Assembly (NCBI GenBank): GCA_013360495.1
Contig: JABWBM010000017.1
Location: 1-32,210, forward strand
DNA from: Planctomycetaceae bacterium
GTDB lineage: Bacteria > Planctomycetota > UBA8742 > UBA2392 > JABWBM01
Length of the DNA stretch: 32,210 nucleotides
Direction: 5' to 3'
Both the position numbers and the translations under genes were made by a program. Of the stretch, positions 3,420-12,962 are shown in pieces. The notes under the pieces are model-generated. The model worked only from the letters and a program-made list of their open reading frames with translations. It was not told the DNA's origin and did no database searches. Each line of letters opens with the position of its first letter. Within the stretch, counting starts at the first letter, position 1.

Positions 3420-5408
3420 CTATTTGTTCCTTCCAAAACTGTGAGTGTCCGGAAAATCCTTGAACATCAGAACGGTCACTTTGGCGGTATTTCGAATGAG
3501 ATCGCGTTGGGCGTTCGTCAGGTCCGGGAGGTTCATGAAGAGTTTCATGACCGCAAGCTGCTTGCGAGCGAGCGTTGAATATTCGTCGCGATCGAGGCTC
3601 AAACTTCCGACCGTGGCAGAACCTTTGGAATCCAGGCGAATGACCTTGGTCGCCGGCTCCAGCGTGTGGAACCAGTCGTCAAGGATGTGAGAAAATACTT
3701 CCGGTTTGATCGACGCAAGACCCCAATCGCGCGAGATCTTCCGCTCCAGTTCGCTCCGGAGTTGGTTCTGATGATGAGATGAAACATAATCGATGTGCAG
3801 GATGTTGATCGTGTCATAGGAACCGACCAGCGAAGCTTCTTCAGCTTCGGGATTGAAATCTTTGTATAAAGCCGTCTTTTGTTCCGGGGTCAGCATTGAC
3901 TTGACGTCGCCCCAGAAAGCCGTCTCGAGTTCTCTTTCATCGATGATTTTTTCGAGTTTCAGGGTCGAGTCGTTATATCCGAATTGCGCGCTTTCCCTGT
4001 CGCGATCGAACTGCATGCCGCGGTTCTCAATGTCAACTCGCTGACTTTCGGTCAACGGAACGCCCGCAGTGTTAAGAATATTGGCAACCATATTCGCCAT
4101 CACATAAGGATGCGACGTTACCGAGTCAGCCGATCCCAGATTCGACGGCAATTTTCCTTCGAACTGTTCCCAGAACATCGTATCGCTCGTCATGAGCGAG
4201 ACCAGCTTCCCCATGCTTTGATCGTCCGGCTCGATTCCCTTTTCATGCGCCTCGACCAGTTTGAGCATCAGTTCCGCGGTTTCGACTTTGTTTTTGGCGG
4301 CAGCTCTCCAGTTGACGTTCTCGAGCCCCGCATATTTCCAATTGGCGAACGCCACCGGATCTTTATCCATGCTCGCATTGGCTCTCTTCGAAGATGGCTC
4401 TTGCGCACCGATCGTTTCGGCATCGTCAGCGTTGTCCGGCTTGGCGATTCCCTGTGGATGCGTGGACAATCGCCGCTCAAACTCGGCGCTCCGCTCCTTC
4501 TCGGCCGCCAGGAGCGTTGCGAGATTATCGCGTTCCTTGCGCAAAACGGTCGCCTCGTTTTGCCCGTTCTCTTTCACCGTCGCGCTATCCGCGCGCGGCG
4601 CGTCCGCTCTTCCGGTTGCTTCCGTTGACGACGCGAGGCGGTCGTTCTTTTCAGCCATTTCCAAATACGCAACCGACCCGCCGAATCCGGCTATGACACC
4701 AGCCGCGACCAACCCGGCCGCTACCAACTTGTTTCCCATGATCAATCCTCCCGCTATCACTGTTCCTGAAACGCTCGCGCCCGCAGATACCGCGGTTTTG
4801 GCCATGCCGAGCCACGTTTGCGCCATGACGTCGAATCCGCCCGGGGGCGCCACAATGGGCAGCACAGTCAACTGACGCGAGATGTTCGTATTGTCCACTC
4901 CAAACCGTTGTCGAAGATTCGCAAGTCCCCGCCCCACCCGATGATTGAACGTCCCGAGCGGCACTCCCAGCGCCTTGGCCGCATCCCTGTAAGGCAGCGA
5001 CGACATCTGTGTCAGCACCACCGCGTCGCGTTCGTCCTCGTCCAGCGCGTCGAGCGCCTCGTGGAGCGCAGCATATTCCTCGGAGCATTCGAGCGATGAG
5101 TGTGGGTCAGACGCACACCCGTCCTGCACATTCATGGCTTGCTCCTCGCTGGCAGTTCGGCTGCGCTTGCGGCGCGCATTCTTTGCCGTATACGCCACCA
5201 CCGTGCCGAACCAGGGCCAGGGATCGTTTGCGGGAATCTTCGACGGCTTGAGCGCGGCCACCAAAAACGCCTGCTGCACCACGTCGGCAGCGTCGGCGCT
5301 GTTGCGCATCATGCCGTAGGCGAGCCGCCACGCCCGTTCAGAGCATTGCTTTACGCAGTGTTCGAGGGCCGCGTGAGCCGCCAGTACCCGTTGGTCGTTG
5401 TGTCCCAT
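3420..5408 (-). CDS. ECF-type sigma factor fused through a TM segment to an LTxxQ (CpxP/CnrX-like) domain
   Basis: 662 aa. Residues about 10-80 look like sigma-70 region 2 (AYGMMRNSADAADVVQQAFL) and about 115-165 like region 4 (EDERDAVVLTQMSSLPYRDAAKALGVPLGTF, partly quoted: AKALGVPLGTFNHRVGRGL). One or two hydrophobic segments follow at about 200-245 (KLVAAGLVAAGVIAGFGG), then a likely coiled coil (KERDNLATLLAAEKERSAEF). A helical C-terminal region of about 330 residues has three LTxxQ motifs: LTESQR (about 451), LTPEQK (about 506) and LTNAQR (about 630). LTxxQ marks the Spy/CpxP/CnrX-like periplasmic family. The start at 5408 was chosen over 5420 because GGAGAG lies 6 nt before it. Inference: a single-chain envelope sensor and sigma factor. 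No separate anti-sigma gene is adjacent. Confidence 0.8.
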   Translation of the reverse strand: MGHNDQRVLAAHAALEHCVKQCSERAWRLAYGMMRNSADAADVVQQAFLVAALKPSKIPANDPWPWFGTVVAYTAKNARRKRSRTASEEQAMNVQDGCASDPHSSLECSEEYAALHEALDALDEDERDAVVLTQMSSLPYRDAAKALGVPLGTFNHRVGRGLANLRQRFGVDNTNISRQLTVLPIVAPPGGFDVMAQTWLGMAKTAVSAGASVSGTVIAGGLIMGNKLVAAGLVAAGVIAGFGGSVAYLEMAEKNDRLASSTEATGRADAPRADSATVKENGQNEATVLRKERDNLATLLAAEKERSAEFERRLSTHPQGIAKPDNADDAETIGAQEPSSKRANASMDKDPVAFANWKYAGLENVNWRAAAKNKVETAELMLKLVEAHEKGIEPDDQSMGKLVSLMTSDTMFWEQFEGKLPSNLGSADSVTSHPYVMANMVANILNTAGVPLTESQRVDIENRGMQFDRDRESAQFGYNDSTLKLEKIIDERELETAFWGDVKSMLTPEQKTALYKDFNPEAEEASLVGSYDTINILHIDYVSSHHQNQLRSELERKISRDWGLASIKPEVFSHILDDWFHTLEPATKVIRLDSKGSATVGSLSLDRDEYSTLARKQLAVMKLFMNLPDLTNAQRDLIRNTAKVTVLMFKDFPDTHSFGRNK

Positions 5409-5496
5409 GGCTCTCTCCATGTACCTGTCGGATGCGGCAACTTTCTATCACAAAAAATTGGAAATTCAGCGGGATATTCAAAGTGGATATCGGAGG

Positions 5497-5722: not shown

Positions 5723-6211
5723 ATGAACCTCGAAGAGTTGGAGCGATTCGAACAGGAAACCCTCGATTTTTTAGAGACGGAGGCCCGCGCGGTGATGGAG
5801 CGGCGCGCCCAAGACCGCACGAAACCCATGCACGCGGCGGATTTTGCGCTGATGAAGTATGCGCGTAAATGCGTTATCGAGCGCATCAAGCGGGCCGGAA
5901 AGAGCGGCAAGCAGGACGTGAACGCGGCGCATACTCCCGATCAAGCCGGGCATGCCAGGGAAATCCGTGAAGGCCGGAGCGCAATAGAAGAGGCAGTCGC
6001 TCGCTATAAATCCAGGGTGATGAACGGAGAGATCCTCGACGAAGAGGTCGTGGCAAGGCAGCGGGTGGTCATGGCGAACTACATGCGAATGGGCATGTCG
6101 CGGCTCGACGTTTTCAAGCGGCTTCAGGCCGATGGCTTCCCGATCAACGACAACCTCATACGCTACGTGACGGACATGGACGCCAAACCTGCCTGCGCCG
6201 GCGCGGGGTAG
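5723..6211 (+). CDS. Hypothetical charged helical protein
   Basis: 162 aa, not recognised. The ATG at 5723 is preceded by AGGAG at a good distance (CAGGAGCATCCCT), so the longer open frame from 5600 is not needed. The protein is soluble, charged and predicted mostly helical (MNLEELERFEQETLDFLETE; REIREGRSAIEEAVARYKSR). Its C-terminal third (MANYMRMGMSRLDVFKRLQA) may be a small helical bundle resembling DNA-binding or recombination helper domains, but no motif is diagnostic. There is no signal peptide or TM. It is divergent from the sigma-fusion gene, and the shared region of about 314 nt is repeat-rich. Co-regulation is possible but not shown. Confidence 0.6.
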   Translation: MNLEELERFEQETLDFLETEARAVMERRAQDRTKPMHAADFALMKYARKCVIERIKRAGKSGKQDVNAAHTPDQAGHAREIREGRSAIEEAVARYKSRVMNGEILDEEVVARQRVVMANYMRMGMSRLDVFKRLQADGFPINDNLIRYVTDMDAKPACAGAG

Positions 6212-6422: not shown

Positions 6423-7382
6423 CTATTTTTCCTGCTTGCCGAGCTTGGCATCGATGTTGAAGATCGTGGCATCGCGTTTGATCTTCAAATTGATCGTATC
6501 GTCGGCCGGACGGGCGGCGATCTTCTTCTGCGCCGCCGCGACAGAGGTTACGGCTTCGCCGTCAACTTCGAGAATGATATCGCCGGTTTTCAACCCGACC
6601 TTGCCGGCGGGGCTGCCCGGGTTGATTTCCGTAATGATCGCGCCGACGATTGTTCCGGACTCCATGTATTCCTTGAGCGATACGCCGAGATAGCCCGTCG
6701 GGCTGCCGGCGATGGTCGTCCCCGGCTGGTCGAGCATATCGGCGCATTTCAGGATGCGTTGGACGGACTCGGCATAGTCAACGATCAACACTGCATTGGC
6801 GCCAAAGGACACAGGAAGGACGGTGCCTGCATTGCGAGTCACCATATTCATGAGGACTGCCCTCGCGTGGACCGCGTCAACGTGCCGAAAATGTTTTGCG
6901 GTTGCCACGAAGGCAAGTGGGTTCATGGAAGCGAGCTCGTTTTCCTCAACGGGAATGGCGCCGGTTATACCGTCACTGGCAGGAGCGATTTCGTCGAAAG
7001 CGCCGCGCGAGAGCAAAGCGAGTTTATGCGTCGCAAGCGCCGTTCGTAAAAGACTCTCGACGCTCGTTTCAAGGCCGGTGGCGGGCGCGAAGAAGGATGT
7101 GGTCTTTCCTTTTAACATTTGGCCCTGCATTGCCACGGCTCGTCCCGTGCTCGTGCTATACACCGCCATGAGTTTTTCGAGAGAAACTTCAACGTAGTCC
7201 GTCATCTTGACGTTGGCGCCGCTCCATTCGAGGCGTCCTTCCGGCGTCCTCAATCGCTGTTCCAGCGGGTCGCTGTTTTGAGCGTGAACCCCCGTGACAT
7301 CGCGCCAGGCGAGCGCGGGCAGGAGTATCGCTGCCGCGCCAACGGCCGGCAGCGTGAGACGGACAAGATATTTCCGGTGCAT
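6423..7382 (-). CDS. Exported secretin-N-like/PDZ protein
   Basis: 319 aa. A signal or anchor segment (residues 8-26) is followed by an STN/N0-like unit at about 63-135 (VSLEKLMAVYSTSTGRAVAM) and an N1-like unit at about 152-218 (FRHVDAVHARAVLMNMVTRN ... VLIVDYAESVQRIL). These resemble the N-terminal domains of secretins such as GspD. A PDZ domain occupies about 229-312, with YLGVSL as carboxylate-binding loop and GSPAGKVGLKTGDIILEVDG. No protease or secretin barrel domain is present. The start at 7382 is preceded by AGGGAAG. PDZ in type II secretion is normally in GspC and N domains in GspD, so the combination suggests a secretion-related periplasmic adaptor (inference). No other secretion genes are nearby. 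Confidence 0.72.
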   Translation of the reverse strand: MHRKYLVRLTLPAVGAAAILLPALAWRDVTGVHAQNSDPLEQRLRTPEGRLEWSGANVKMTDYVEVSLEKLMAVYSTSTGRAVAMQGQMLKGKTTSFFAPATGLETSVESLLRTALATHKLALLSRGAFDEIAPASDGITGAIPVEENELASMNPLAFVATAKHFRHVDAVHARAVLMNMVTRNAGTVLPVSFGANAVLIVDYAESVQRILKCADMLDQPGTTIAGSPTGYLGVSLKEYMESGTIVGAIITEINPGSPAGKVGLKTGDIILEVDGEAVTSVAAAQKKIAARPADDTINLKIKRDATIFNIDAKLGKQEK

Positions 7383-7541
7383 AATCTTCCCTTTCCCAGC
7401 AAAGTGTTCTGAGTCCACCAACACGGAATTGCAGTCGAGAGAGTCTGACGCGCGTCTAAGCAGTTGAACGTCTGAGCTGCGGAGGGCGTTGGGGGAAATA
7501 CGAGACGAACAAAAGAAATCGATCGAACAGACAAGTGATCT

Positions 7542-8914: not shown

Positions 8915-10165
8915 CTATTCACGCGAACCGAAAAGCAGCTTCAGCATCGCGCGGGCTTGTTCGTCCGCCGGATGGTCGGCGATGTATTCGTTGAGCGTCC
9001 TCAACGCGTCATCGGTACGGGCAAGCTTGTGCTGCAGCCGCGCGAGGAATAGCGCCGCGAGGTCGTAGCCGCGCGCGCGGGCGTGACGGTAATACACTTC
9101 GGCATCGGAGAGTGCCTCGGATTTTTCAAGGAGTGAACCAAGCAACCAATAGGCGTTAGCGTCGGCAGCCCCGGCTTCGATCAAAGATTTCAGCGCGGCT
9201 TCGGCTGCCGGAACATCGTTGGCGCGAAGGGCGATGCGGGCGGCGAGTCGAAGAATTTGAGCGCTGCGTTTGCCGGCGGGAATCGAATCGATCCATACCC
9301 GCGCCAAGGAAAGCGCTTCGGCGCGCTCGGCCACGGCGATGCAGAGCTCCGCGAAGCCGGGATTGGCGTCGAATATGCTAGCCCAATCCTGCCCGGTCGC
9401 GGCGACGCACGCCGCCAATGCCTCGCGAACATGACCTGCTTCAAGCTGCGCCGAGATGTGCCGCTGCTGCGCGACGATGTCCTTTGGCGCGAGCAGGGCG
9501 GCCGCCTCGATGGCGGCGAGCGAACGCTCGTCGTTCGATGTTTCGCGCGCGGCGAATGCGAGCGCATTCCACAATTGGCTCTCGGCAGGGGATTCGCGCA
9601 GCAACGCAAGAGCGGCGTCCTGCGCTTCGTCGAAGCGTTCTTGCTTGTTGAGCAGGCTGAGGTCAAGGCGGCGCAGCGCCATGTCGGCAGGGAAGCGCAG
9701 CATCCCCTGCTCGACGATCAAGGCCGAGAGGCGAAAATCGCCGGTCTCATAGGCAGCGCGCGCATAGGCCGATATCTCGCCCGCGTCCGCCGTGCGTATG
9801 TCGATGACGGGGGCAAGCAGCGCGAGCGCATCTTTCCAACGTTGCTCCGCGAGCGCGCAGTTGGCGAGGCCGAGCGTCGCCGGACGTAGTGTCGGGTCGA
9901 GGTTGAGGGCTGTCCGGTAGGCGTCTTGAGCCTGCGCGTGTTGTTCGAGGCGCATGCGCGCGTGGCCAAGTAATAATTGGCGATGGGCGTGATCGTCGCC
10001 CTTCCATTCGTTGAGCAAATCGACGGCCGCTTGAGCGCGGCCTTCGTCGAGCGCGGTTTGGACCTTTTCGAGCAACGCCGCTAATTCCTGCGCCGGCTGC
10101 TTGCTTTGCGCCACGATGAGTACTGGCAGCAGGAGAAGGGCGAATATGGTCAAGAGCCGTTTCAT
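8915..10165 (-). CDS. Exported TPR protein, last gene of the TonB operon
   Basis: 416 aa. A cleavable signal peptide (MKRLLTIFALLLLPVLIVAQ) is followed by TPR-like repeats throughout: AAVDLLNEWKGDDHAHRQLL, AQDAYRTALNLDPTLRPATL, DAEVYYRHARARGYDLAALF and ALRTLNEYIADHPADEQARA. Its start codon overlaps the tonB stop (ATGA), which favours translational coupling and fixes the start. A TPR gene directly after tonB is known from TtpC-type TonB systems of marine proteobacteria, where a periplasmic TPR protein assists transport. Inference: a periplasmic scaffold for this TonB machine. It converges with the neuC-like gene, with 15 nt between the stops. Confidence 0.82.
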   Translation of the reverse strand: MKRLLTIFALLLLPVLIVAQSKQPAQELAALLEKVQTALDEGRAQAAVDLLNEWKGDDHAHRQLLLGHARMRLEQHAQAQDAYRTALNLDPTLRPATLGLANCALAEQRWKDALALLAPVIDIRTADAGEISAYARAAYETGDFRLSALIVEQGMLRFPADMALRRLDLSLLNKQERFDEAQDAALALLRESPAESQLWNALAFAARETSNDERSLAAIEAAALLAPKDIVAQQRHISAQLEAGHVREALAACVAATGQDWASIFDANPGFAELCIAVAERAEALSLARVWIDSIPAGKRSAQILRLAARIALRANDVPAAEAALKSLIEAGAADANAYWLLGSLLEKSEALSDAEVYYRHARARGYDLAALFLARLQHKLARTDDALRTLNEYIADHPADEQARAMLKLLFGSRE

Positions 10166-10839
10166 TTGTTCCTGTCTCCCAGCGACCATTCCAGTTCGAC
10201 GATGCGTTCGGATTCCACCGGTACTCCATCCTGCTTCGCGGGCGTGGACACGCCATGTAGGCATGCTTCTTTGGCGGCCTCGTCAAACACACCTTCGGGC
10301 GAGCTATCGACGGTTTCGGCAAAAACGATCTTGCCGTCGACACCGACACGTATACGCACCAGCGACCGGCCTTCGATGCCGTCGCGTGTTGCGCCCTCGG
10401 GGTAAAAGTCACTCAGGTTTGGGATCACGAGCGGCCCGGCAGGCTCAATGCGCGGGGCAGCCGGTGGCTCAAAGGCTGGCAAGCGGCCCGGCGAGATCAA
10501 CGCGCTTCCCAATGACGGCGCAACCGTTTCTGCCAGTTCCGGCGTATAGGCAGGAAGGTGGAGGGCCTCTGCCTCGCCATGGTTAGGCAGTTCGAGCGCG
10601 GACGGCGCAGCGATCGAAACATTCTTTCCTTGCGACGTGGATGGCGATGGAGGCATTTCGGATTCGCTTGGATCCGTAGCCGTTTGCGCCATTCGAATAG
10701 ATGGTTTTGCCATCAACACCGCTGGCTCCGTTGCTTCTCCGGTCAACGAGACGATGAGCATCAGTAACATGAGATTGACGCCCGCGCTTGCGAGAAACGC
10801 GATACCGTACCGCACGAGTTTCGTTTTCCGCTCGTTCAT
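10162..10839 (-). CDS. tonB: TonB-family energy transducer
   Basis: 225 aa. There is one N-terminal TM (about 10-32, YGIAFLASAGVNLMLLMLIV), a Pro-rich periplasmic linker, and a C-terminal TonB domain: GIEGRSLVRIRVGVDGKIVF, then GVFDEAAKEACLHGVSTPAK. It would pass proton-motive energy from ExbB/ExbD to outer-membrane receptors. The start overlaps the exbD stop (ATGA at 10836-10839) and its own stop overlaps the TPR start in the same way. No TonB-dependent receptor is in the window, so the cargo is unknown. The usual His in the TonB TM helix is not evident, as in some short TonB2-type proteins. Confidence 0.85.
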   Translation of the reverse strand: MNERKTKLVRYGIAFLASAGVNLMLLMLIVSLTGEATEPAVLMAKPSIRMAQTATDPSESEMPPSPSTSQGKNVSIAAPSALELPNHGEAEALHLPAYTPELAETVAPSLGSALISPGRLPAFEPPAAPRIEPAGPLVIPNLSDFYPEGATRDGIEGRSLVRIRVGVDGKIVFAETVDSSPEGVFDEAAKEACLHGVSTPAKQDGVPVESERIVELEWSLGDRNK

Positions 10840-11246
10840 CGTTTGTTCGCCGCAATGCTGACGTCGTCCGCGCCAGCCGCAAAGCATGCGTCATACACCT
10901 TGAGCACGATTCCCATCTGCGCCTCGCGGTCGCCCTCGAGCAGCACGCGCTTCGCGCCAGAGCGCTCCAGCGCCGTCCGGATGGCAAAACTGTCATCCGC
11001 GTTGATACGCTGGCCGTCGAGGAAGACGTCGCCCTGTTTCGTGACCGCGATGCTCACGGCGCTATCGCTGAAAGGTTTCGAGCGGTCGCTGGCTGGCCGC
11101 TCGATCTCGACGCCACTATTACTCAAAAAGCTCGTGGTCACCGCGAAGAAGATCAACAAGATAAACACCATATCGATCAGCGGCGCCATATCCACGCCAG
11201 CGCCAGCATGTTCGCGGTCTTTGCCGAATATGCGCCTGCGTCTCAT
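10836..11246 (-). CDS. exbD: ExbD/TolR-family proton channel subunit
   Basis: 136 aa. After a short basic N-terminus comes the single TM with the family signature DMAPLIDMVFILLIFFAVTT. Asp25 is the conserved proton-handling residue. The periplasmic part has the ExbD fold pattern (VSIAVTKQGDVFLDGQRINA; VLLEGDREAQMGIVLKVYDA). The start overlaps the stop of the upstream exbB (ATGA at 11243-11246), so the coupled start at 11246 is preferred over the longer frame from 11288. Confidence 0.92.
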   Translation of the reverse strand: MRRRRIFGKDREHAGAGVDMAPLIDMVFILLIFFAVTTSFLSNSGVEIERPASDRSKPFSDSAVSIAVTKQGDVFLDGQRINADDSFAIRTALERSGAKRVLLEGDREAQMGIVLKVYDACFAAGADDVSIAANKR

Positions 11247-11719
11247 GCCGCCCCCCGAAGTTTCTTTGCGCGGCGCGAGAGCAGGCATTCGATCAAGAGC
11301 GCGGGGGCGGCGACAGTGAGGCCAAGTTGCGTTGTGATCAATGCCTCGCTCACGCCCGTTCCGATACGGCTAGCACTCGCCCCCGCGGAAGTCAGACCGT
11401 CGAAGGTAGCGATCATGCCGTTGACCGTTCCAAGCAGGCCGAGCAACGGCGCGACTGCGATCAACGCGCGGATCAGGTGGGGATGATAAGAGTGCGGGGT
11501 ACGGAGTGCGGAGTCCGGAGTCGGAGGTCGGGTTTGGAGCGCCATACGCCCCCGCAAGGCGTCTTGATCTTCTGATTGTGACGTCACGCGAGGGCGCGTG
11601 ACGCTACAAAGACTCACGGCGCGGTTGATGAGAAGCGCGTAGAGAATCAGGCCGACGGCGACAATGGCATAGGCGCAGATGCCTCCCTCGCGAAAAAGCT
11701 GGACGATGCCGTCAAGCAT
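11243..11719 (-). CDS. exbB: ExbB/MotA/TolQ-family channel subunit with repeat-derived loop
   Basis: 158 aa. TM1 is at about 13-32 (ICAYAIVAVGLILYALLINR). The conserved TolQ core follows at about 85-145: IAVAPLLGLLGTVNGMIATF, then GTGVSEALITTQLGLTVAAP. Residues 38-77, which should be the cytoplasmic loop between TM1 and TM2, are translated from three repeat elements (11490-11532, 11537-11565, 11580-11607). They give a low-complexity sequence (SVTRPRVTSQSEDQDALRGR). The frame is intact on both sides, and the start overlaps the upstream stop (8-nt overlap), so it is probably expressed. It is the second, short ExbB of a two-ExbB system. Whether the loop harms function cannot be judged from sequence. 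Confidence 0.88.
   Translation of the reverse strand: MLDGIVQLFREGGICAYAIVAVGLILYALLINRAVSLCSVTRPRVTSQSEDQDALRGRMALQTRPPTPDSALRTPHSYHPHLIRALIAVAPLLGLLGTVNGMIATFDGLTSAGASASRIGTGVSEALITTQLGLTVAAPALLIECLLSRRAKKLRGAA
11490..11532. repeat. GGAGTCCGG-type repeat R2, copy 2, within exbB
   Basis: Consecutive short units TACGGAGTGCGGAGTCCGG and GGAGTCGGAGGTCGGG resemble the intergenic copy at 5642-5692. It is translated as part of the ExbB loop. Confidence 0.55.
11537..11565 (+). repeat. Hairpin repeat E4 (degenerate) within exbB
   Basis: GAGCGCCATACG...CGCAAGGCGTCTT lines up with E6 (GTAGCGCCATGCG...CGCATGGCGTCTT), with most differences in the loop. Seven of nine stem pairs remain. It faces E5 tail-to-tail across 14 nt. 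Confidence 0.65.
11580..11607 (-). repeat. Hairpin repeat E5 within exbB
   Basis: On the minus strand it reads GTAGCGTCACGCG-CCCT-CGCGTGACGTC. This gives a perfect stem and the same ends as E2 and E6. It encodes SVTRPRVTS of ExbB. Confidence 0.8.
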
Positions 11720-12962
11720 GGGCCGATGCCTCCTGAGGCGATTGCGCCGAAGGCCCACGGGCCGCTTCGGCCATGGCTTCGAGCGTTGCTTCGCGCCGCT
11801 CAACCAAACGGCGGAACGCGGCGTGCAGCAATACCATGGGGATTGCCACCATCAGACCGAGCTGTGTCGTGATCAGTGCCACAGATATACCGCCCGAAAG
11901 GTTGCGCGCGTCGCCAGTCCCCTCGACGGAAATCACATCGAAGGTCGTGATCATGCCCGTTACCGTTCCGAGCAGGCCAAGCAGGGGCGCGATGGCCGCC
12001 ACGGCTGCGATCAATGTCATGGAACGCTCGAGACGTGGCTCAACAGCCAACAAGACGGATTCGATTTTCGATTCGCGGGCTTCGGCGCCCGCGATAGTGG
12101 AGCAACCGGCGAGGGCTTGTTCGGCGTAGGTTCGTATAGCAGGCCAACGGGTCACGAGCGTCGTAGCTCGCTCGATGCAAAGCAGCAGACCGAGCACGCC
12201 GAGGGCGAGGATCGGCCAACAGAAGAACCCGCCTGTCTCGATCCATTCCCAAAAGGATTGCTCCTTGGCCGCCGGCCTTCGGGCGAGCGAGCCGCTGATG
12301 TCGAAAGGAAGCGCGTCGATCTTGTCCGACGCCATAGCGGCCGCGAGCATGCCGTGGGCTTCGCGCGGGAACTCGCCGCTTACTTGCCACTTGCCGTCGC
12401 CAAGCGAAACGAGCAGCCCGCGCGTATCATCGGTAGCGCCGCAAGCGAGGTGGTATGCCTCTCCGATATGAAGTACAGGAACATTGATGGAGGCGCCCGT
12501 ACGCCCGAAAACGTGCTCGGCCGTCATTCGGGAGCTGCACGATCTTTTAACATGGTCAAGACGCGCATCGACACCGGAGAGAATGTCCGACTTGAACGCG
12601 GCGGCGTCGTCTGTCACGGCCAGCGCAATACCCGCGCAGGCGGAGAGCGCGCGCTCGAGCGCCGTGGCCTTTTGAATCACTGTCGATCGTTCGCGGCGCG
12701 CACGGTCAACGTCGGCCTGCAACGTGCGAAGTTTTTCATCCGTTGCAGCGTGCTCGTTACGGGCGACGGCAAGTTTGCCGTAGAGAGCGTTGATTTGCTG
12801 GTTGAGCTGCTTTTCCTCTTCGATGCGTTGCGAGCGAAACGTGGCGAGGTCGCGCTCGGCCCCGGCTCGTTTCGCGCGAGCAGATTCAAGGATGGCGTCG
12901 TCTGCGGCGAGCGTCGCCGCGAAGAGGATTTGCGCTGCAAGTAATAGTGTGCGGATCGTCAC
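11712..12962 (-). CDS. Long ExbB-type protein with periplasmic coiled-coil extension (TtpC-like)
   Basis: 416 aa. A signal peptide (TIRTLLLAAQILFAATLA) is followed by a coiled coil at about 24-110 (EEEKQLNQQINALYGKLAVA) and a region of about 130 residues with no motif I know. A MotA/TolQ/ExbB domain follows from about 240: TM1 WPILALGVLGLLLCIERA, then IAPLLGLLGTVTGMITTFDV and GGISVALITTQLGLMVAIPM. This long form with an N-terminal periplasmic domain corresponds to TtpC of TonB2 systems. It starts with GTG overlapping the upstream stop (GTGA at 12959-12962) and overlaps the next gene by 8 nt. The coiled coil may pair with the DUF3450 protein. Confidence 0.87.
   Translation of the reverse strand: MTIRTLLLAAQILFAATLAADDAILESARAKRAGAERDLATFRSQRIEEEKQLNQQINALYGKLAVARNEHAATDEKLRTLQADVDRARRERSTVIQKATALERALSACAGIALAVTDDAAAFKSDILSGVDARLDHVKRSCSSRMTAEHVFGRTGASINVPVLHIGEAYHLACGATDDTRGLLVSLGDGKWQVSGEFPREAHGMLAAAMASDKIDALPFDISGSLARRPAAKEQSFWEWIETGGFFCWPILALGVLGLLLCIERATTLVTRWPAIRTYAEQALAGCSTIAGAEARESKIESVLLAVEPRLERSMTLIAAVAAIAPLLGLLGTVTGMITTFDVISVEGTGDARNLSGGISVALITTQLGLMVAIPMVLLHAAFRRLVERREATLEAMAEAARGPSAQSPQEASAHA

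Follow-up and report, generated by a model that had tools for sequence, protein, structure and literature searches.

A membrane-spanning ECF sigma factor gene of Planctomycetota with a predicted second product from an internal start

Many of the ECF sigma factors encoded by Planctomycetota lack an evident anti-sigma partner. In CnrYXH of Cupriavidus metallidurans, a system of three proteins, a periplasmic LTxxQ-type sensor controls the ECF sigma factor. Sigma factors with C-terminal transmembrane (TM) extensions have been described as well, among them IutY (ECF243) and the groups ECF48, ECF52 and ECF53 (PMC8999054). IutY is released by Prc and RseP, which provides a precedent for the release of a TM-fused sigma factor, and ECF57 sigma factors carry WD40 extensions (PMC8999054). 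A second line of precedent comes from two-polypeptide phage endolysins, in which a single gene with an in-frame internal start gives rise to a full-length and a C-terminal product that share one stop and can co-assemble, in one case at a ratio of 1:5 (PMC9430671).

Architecture and relatives of the sigma factor gene

The window, that is the whole analysed stretch of 32,210 nucleotides from a Planctomycetaceae bacterium, contains on its minus strand an open frame at 3420-5420 that corresponds to 666 aa when read from an upstream ATG at 5420; residue numbers throughout refer to this frame, and all features of the gene lie on the minus strand. As the ATG at 5408 is preceded by a better Shine-Dalgarno sequence (GGAGAGAG, 5411-5418, -6.4 kcal/mol) than the ATG at 5420 (-1.9 kcal/mol), it is the likelier start, giving a full-length gene at 3420-5408 that encodes 662 aa comprising an ECF sigma factor, a linker, a TM helix, a coiled coil and a helical domain. 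Pfam matches above cut-off place sigma-70 region 2 at residues 23-89 (5154-5354, PF04542, E 7.2e-7) and region 4_2 at residues 118-169 (4914-5069, PF08281, E 3.3e-10), in agreement with the two regions named in the preliminary description of this DNA, and AlphaFold models the sigma part with a pLDDT of about 90. Besides sigma-70 regions 2 and 4/4_2, the window protein gave no Pfam match above cut-off, neither to another sigma region nor to zf-HC2, FecR or any other anti-sigma domain. Judged by this domain content, regions 2 and 4 without region 3, the sigma part is of ECF type. Residues 22-34 (approximately 5319-5357) form a CxxxCxERAWRLA motif, whose second cysteine is invariant in 13 relatives and whose first is common; a ligand or structural role is possible.

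The sigma part is followed by a conserved juxtamembrane linker (residues 177-227, 4740-4892) with the consensus LPxxxPPGGxExAxxxWxxAA...GG, for which AlphaFold predicts helices at 177-185 and 196-216. This linker is common to paralogs with differing C-terminal modules, and with its PPGGxExAxxxWxxAA stretch it could be an intramolecular anti-sigma element. The main hydropathy peak (1.9) marks a TM helix at residues 233-251 (4668-4724), at about the place (220-245) where the preliminary description had expected one, and hydropathy indicates a single TM both in the window protein and in its relatives. The coiled coil proposed earlier probably corresponds to a long helix in the AlphaFold model at residues 289-320 (4461-4556). 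It is followed by a C-terminal helical sensor-like domain, here called family A1 (residues 356-655, 3456-4355), which reached a pTM of 0.72 and a mean pLDDT of 76 when modelled alone with AF2. Structure predictions covered the window sequence and the sequences of related loci, leaving aside the paralogs from genome searches.

A search of other genomes for the same architecture found it in a single frame in many separate genomes across Planctomycetota, which rules out a frameshift or sequencing join of two genes. The sigma factor, TM and C-terminal domain are thus encoded in one open frame, as had been proposed. No anti-sigma factor was found among the scanned neighbours, namely genes for MgtE, an RDD protein, a PDZ protein and a 162-aa protein without Pfam match, so that the suggested absence of a separate anti-sigma gene holds for these neighbours. 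The gene for the PDZ-domain protein (6426-7388, minus strand) adjoins a hypothetical gene (5723-6208) and lies about 1 kb from the sigma gene. Further away, minus-strand ORFs at 10162-12962 resemble a TonB/ExbB/ExbD cluster by eye.

Eight such genes are present in the 3.4 Mb genome, the window gene and seven others that agree with it in sigma part, linker and TM. The C-terminal domain of the window gene recurs on three of these paralogs (C203, C220, C164), WD40 repeats are found on C246 and C70, and a PDZ-like stretch ends two tandem genes on C243 (C246, C243 and C70 being the loci L031, L032 and L033). By sequence, this genome appears to carry a modular one-chain sensor family with interchangeable C-terminal modules of the window, WD40 and PDZ types. 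In other genomes, MORN repeats or a carboxypeptidase-regulatory-like domain follow the same sigma-linker-TM part, and a shorter subgroup of about 450-500 aa exists (L068, 5010-6431; L074, 5001-6461, with MORN_2 by Pfam; L183; L195; L197). Most members of the window's order have a single-frame ortholog of about 630 aa and, encoded separately, a TM-domain protein of about 430 aa that stands alone. Family A1, fused to a sigma part or standalone, was found in 59 of the 392 Planctomycetota genomes sampled (about 15 %), whereby a sensor-like domain that has no Pfam model is defined.

An internal Shine-Dalgarno sequence and start codon

Directly 5' of the TM, the gene contains an in-frame Shine-Dalgarno sequence and start codon, GGGAGGATTGATC-ATG (4737-4752), which the preliminary description had missed. 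The codons before the TM read GCG GGA GGA TTG ATC ATG GGA AAC AAG, whereby the Shine-Dalgarno-like GGGAGGA (4746-4752) codes in frame for Gly-Gly 224-225 and the predicted start ATG for Met228 (4737-4739). Initiation at this codon would yield a second product of 439 aa consisting of TM, coiled coil and sensor domain (3420-4739). Standalone homologs of 410-442 aa, close to this predicted length, also start at this very point, and their Shine-Dalgarno sequences are mostly similar in strength. Within the window gene, the internal Shine-Dalgarno energy of -10.3 kcal/mol indicates a stronger site than that of the full-length start (-6.4 kcal/mol).

The combination of a GGA-based Shine-Dalgarno sequence and an in-frame ATG, GTG or TTG before the TM recurs in dozens of Planctomycetota genes, including relatives with quite different C-terminal modules. 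L032 has Glu in place of the second Gly, yet its DNA reads AGGAGAA. A methionine universally conserved at the protein level was considered and rejected, as some members have Val or Leu at this position, which led to the recognition of GTG starts in L055 and L061 and of a TTG start in L049. The site is mostly absent from the shorter MORN-type subgroup and as such not universal.

Four tests support the notion that selection acts on this internal element. Codon conservation peaks at Gly224, which ranks first of the 231 columns in an alignment of 59 non-redundant genes (codon identity 0.70, with 0.34 expected; z 6.6). The codon kept there is GGA, used in 29 of 56 sequences; GGA accounts for less than 0.3 of all Gly codons in most of the genes tested and for 0.45 in the window gene. 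GGAG or AGGA lies upstream of 53 of 85 juxtamembrane Met codons, compared with 72 of 953 other Met codons (p 4e-32). Where GGAG occurs in the juxtamembrane zone, an in-frame start follows in 53 of 61 genes at a distance of 5, 8 or 11 nt, compared with 47 of 209 GGAG occurrences in the sigma part. Folding of the mRNA around the internal start is furthermore weaker than in synonymous shuffles (mean z +1.5, n=60), while control positions gave -0.35. A per-gene test of Shine-Dalgarno energy against synonymous shuffles was underpowered (window p 0.28, median p 0.24), for the window gene because Gly-Gly already favours pairing, and codon-level and mRNA-folding tests were used for this reason.

The presence of the site also varies with the neighbouring gene. 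We compared 42 distinct fused sigma-sensor genes, 36 without and 6 with an adjacent standalone sensor gene; in four loci the fused gene is directly followed by a standalone sensor paralog (L039, 2114-5328; L300, 1433-4593; L303, 1519-4694; L038, 3634-6893). An automatic scan found the site in 33/36 genes without an adjacent sensor gene and in 1/6 with one (Fisher p 4e-4). Because its zone was tied to one hydropathy peak, the scan overlooked L322, L310 and the ATG of L312; after these loci had been read by eye, the counts were 35/36 and 0/6 (p 1e-6). Owing to the kinship among the 42 genes, both p-values overstate independence, and the comparison was devised only once the first examples had been noticed. 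The one exception among the 36, L060, has kept GGAG and carries ATC instead of a start codon. As both states are found within each of the family groups f31, f62 and f18, the contrast does not reflect one split in the tree.

Several two-gene relatives carry the same module in another setting. In L319 (1523-4059), an ECF sigma gene shares one overlapping base with the gene for a 611-aa protein with zf-HC2 (E 2.6e-6), FecR (E 6.3e-7), a TM and the same sensor domain, which ties this domain to sigma control outside the fused form. Like the window gene, the L319 pair couples the sensor domain to an ECF sigma factor and places a Shine-Dalgarno sequence with start, AAGGAGATCAAA-ATG (AAGGAG with an in-frame ATG), before the TM-sensor module; it differs in that sigma and anti-sigma factor are two overlapping genes and that anti-sigma and FecR domains are present. 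Similar sites are found in L316, L317 and L311, suggesting at the sequence level that a ribosome-binding site of its own usually stays with the TM-sensor module, irrespective of the fusion partner. In L316 (1002-3214) and L317 (1670-4047), the ECF sigma gene overlaps the gene for a protein that has two TMs and this sensor domain, and among L316, L317 and L319 only the last has zf-HC2 and FecR. All three possess a second TM before the domain, so that the domain of the long form would sit inside the cell, which counts against the topology proposed below.

The C-terminal domain and its LTxxQ motifs

Three LTxxQ motifs had been reported for the C-terminal domain, of which the first two are conserved and the third is not. 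In LTESQ (residues 456-460, 4041-4055) and LTPEQ (510-514, 3879-3893), the L and Q of these L[TS]xxQ-type positions are invariant in 13 aligned relatives, 54-55 residues apart and located in predicted helices, while LTNAQ (634-638, 3507-3521) is not conserved in the alignment of relatives. Eight columns are invariant among 17 members of the family (W371, H437, P438, P455, Q460, E495, Q514, W583), with H437 as the single invariant His; a conserved His/Met metal-ligand pattern was not found among these members.

The kinship to CnrX and CpxP that had been derived from the motifs was not established by profile and structure comparisons with the Spy, CpxP and CnrX families. The window domain has no match to PF07813 (LTXXQ), and scanning its own genome with this model gave nothing at E 0.01. 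LTXXQ is the commonest weak Pfam match of the family, seen in 4 of 17 members with scores below the Pfam cut-off (best E 0.0056), and a profile alignment of the domain with an LTXXQ set reached a probability of 88, resting on the two motifs. A PDB profile search with the sensor domain returned no LTxxQ-family protein; its matches to the apoptosis protein ASC centre on one LTxEQ motif and were discarded as spurious. Foldseek with the AF2 model gave no match in the PDB at E <= 0.001 (best E 0.44; highest probability 0.72 for 5io8, at E 1.0), and CpxP, Spy and CnrX are absent among the 50 matches listed.

A true metal or misfolding sensor of the CnrX/CpxP type, which would make the gene a fused CnrXYH-like system, is doubtful in our view. 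The two conserved positions, the recurrent weak LTXXQ matches and the profile alignment speak in its favour, whereas the fold and PDB profile searches gave nothing significant, the motifs are about 73 and 76 residues apart in Spy and CpxP sequences, respectively, and the family keeps only one invariant His. This interpretation is compatible with a second product and bears on the nature of the sensor. We regard the domain as sensor-like by its placement, while its assignment to the CnrX or CpxP family is not established.

Proposed two-product model and comparison with known systems

Since a single chain joins the sigma factor to a TM and a domain that is probably extracytoplasmic, and no anti-sigma gene is seen among the scanned neighbours, membrane tethering of the sigma part, as already suggested in the preliminary description, is the natural reading. 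We propose, with a probability of roughly 60 %, that two products arise from the gene, a membrane-tethered ECF sigma factor among them, and that the sigma part becomes free or accessible once a signal acts on the outer domain; the organism is uncultured and known as a MAG, and the model is built on sequence. In the 662-aa product, the sigma factor would be cytoplasmic, with one TM and with the coiled coil and LTxxQ-like domain outside the membrane, while the second ribosome-binding site and in-frame start directly before the TM would yield the 439-aa TM-sensor alone. Coiled coil and sensor domain probably bring the two products together in an oligomer that would consist mostly of bare sensor subunits, with few that bear a sigma factor. 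The sigma factor would remain tethered until an envelope signal on the sensor domain frees or exposes it, perhaps by cleavage in or near the TM; genes for M50 (site-2) proteases are present in the genome. We also lean towards the view that a large modular ECF class of Planctomycetota consists of such two-product genes, with signalling through mixed membrane complexes in which the two ribosome-binding sites of a single gene would determine the subunit ratio.

It is unlikely, albeit worth weighing, that the full-length protein alone matters, as a sigma factor with a fused anti-sigma or sensor extension that is freed by regulated proteolysis as in IutY, with the internal Shine-Dalgarno sequence and start left as a relic of gene fusion. 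IutY (ECF243) and ECF48/52/53 are examples of sigma factors held by a TM extension, IutY is released by Prc and RseP (PMC8999054), and the M50 protease genes would fit such a route. A relic would be expected to decay, yet GGA and the start codon persist amid changing residues on either side, some members have GTG or TTG instead of the Met codon, and fused genes with a separate sensor gene alongside lack the site.

Two further explanations accept a function of the Shine-Dalgarno sequence while dispensing with initiation. A ribosome pause before the TM in aid of membrane targeting would agree with the location of the sequence directly 5' of the TM in all cases, but a pause requires no start codon, and an in-frame ATG, GTG or TTG follows in 53/61 GGAG genes. 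Low mRNA structure is moreover a signature of initiation, and fused genes with a neighbouring sensor gene share the need to insert a TM but do without the site, which makes pausing improbable as the sole role. Stimulation of programmed frameshifting as in dnaX or prfB, leading to a soluble sigma-only product, is still harder to credit. A stop in the +1 frame at the start codon (ATGA type) is indeed found in 28/60 genes, but any second codon starting with A would produce ATGA, the remaining genes have their stops at widely varying distances of up to 163 (+1) and 409 (-1) codons, and the sequences 3' of the Shine-Dalgarno element, with their differing MKK, MANK, MSSK and MTSK types, share no slippery sequence.

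If the two-product model is true, one ECF class has its regulator on the same chain, and that regulator's partner is made from within the gene itself. Functional in-frame internal starts in bacteria are known in few cases outside phages, and this would be another; the evolutionary swap of an internal start against a separate gene makes this function testable.

TM-extended sigma factors and in-frame internal starts are each already known, and a literature search with little subscription coverage found no description of their combination. IutY and ECF48/52/53 resemble the window protein in joining an ECF sigma factor, a TM and an extracytoplasmic part in one chain without a separate anti-sigma factor. 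They differ in carrying a recognisable anti-sigma domain (a fused anti-sigma factor or a zinc finger), for which the window protein gave no match, and in having a sensor domain unlike that of the window protein, and an internal start is not described for them in the section of PMC8999054 considered here. ECF57 (PMC8999054) resembles, in domain layout, those paralogs of the window genome in which WD40 repeats follow the sigma part and linker also seen in the window gene, whereas the window gene's own module is not WD40. With CnrYXH the locus shares the idea of a periplasmic LTxxQ-type sensor over an ECF sigma factor, but three proteins there stand against one chain here, which has no anti-sigma CnrY and whose sensor has no established kinship to CnrX. 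The two-polypeptide endolysins, finally, are phage enzymes and as such neither membrane-tethered regulators nor involved in transcription, and their likeness to the proposed model lies in the full-length and C-terminal products of a single gene.
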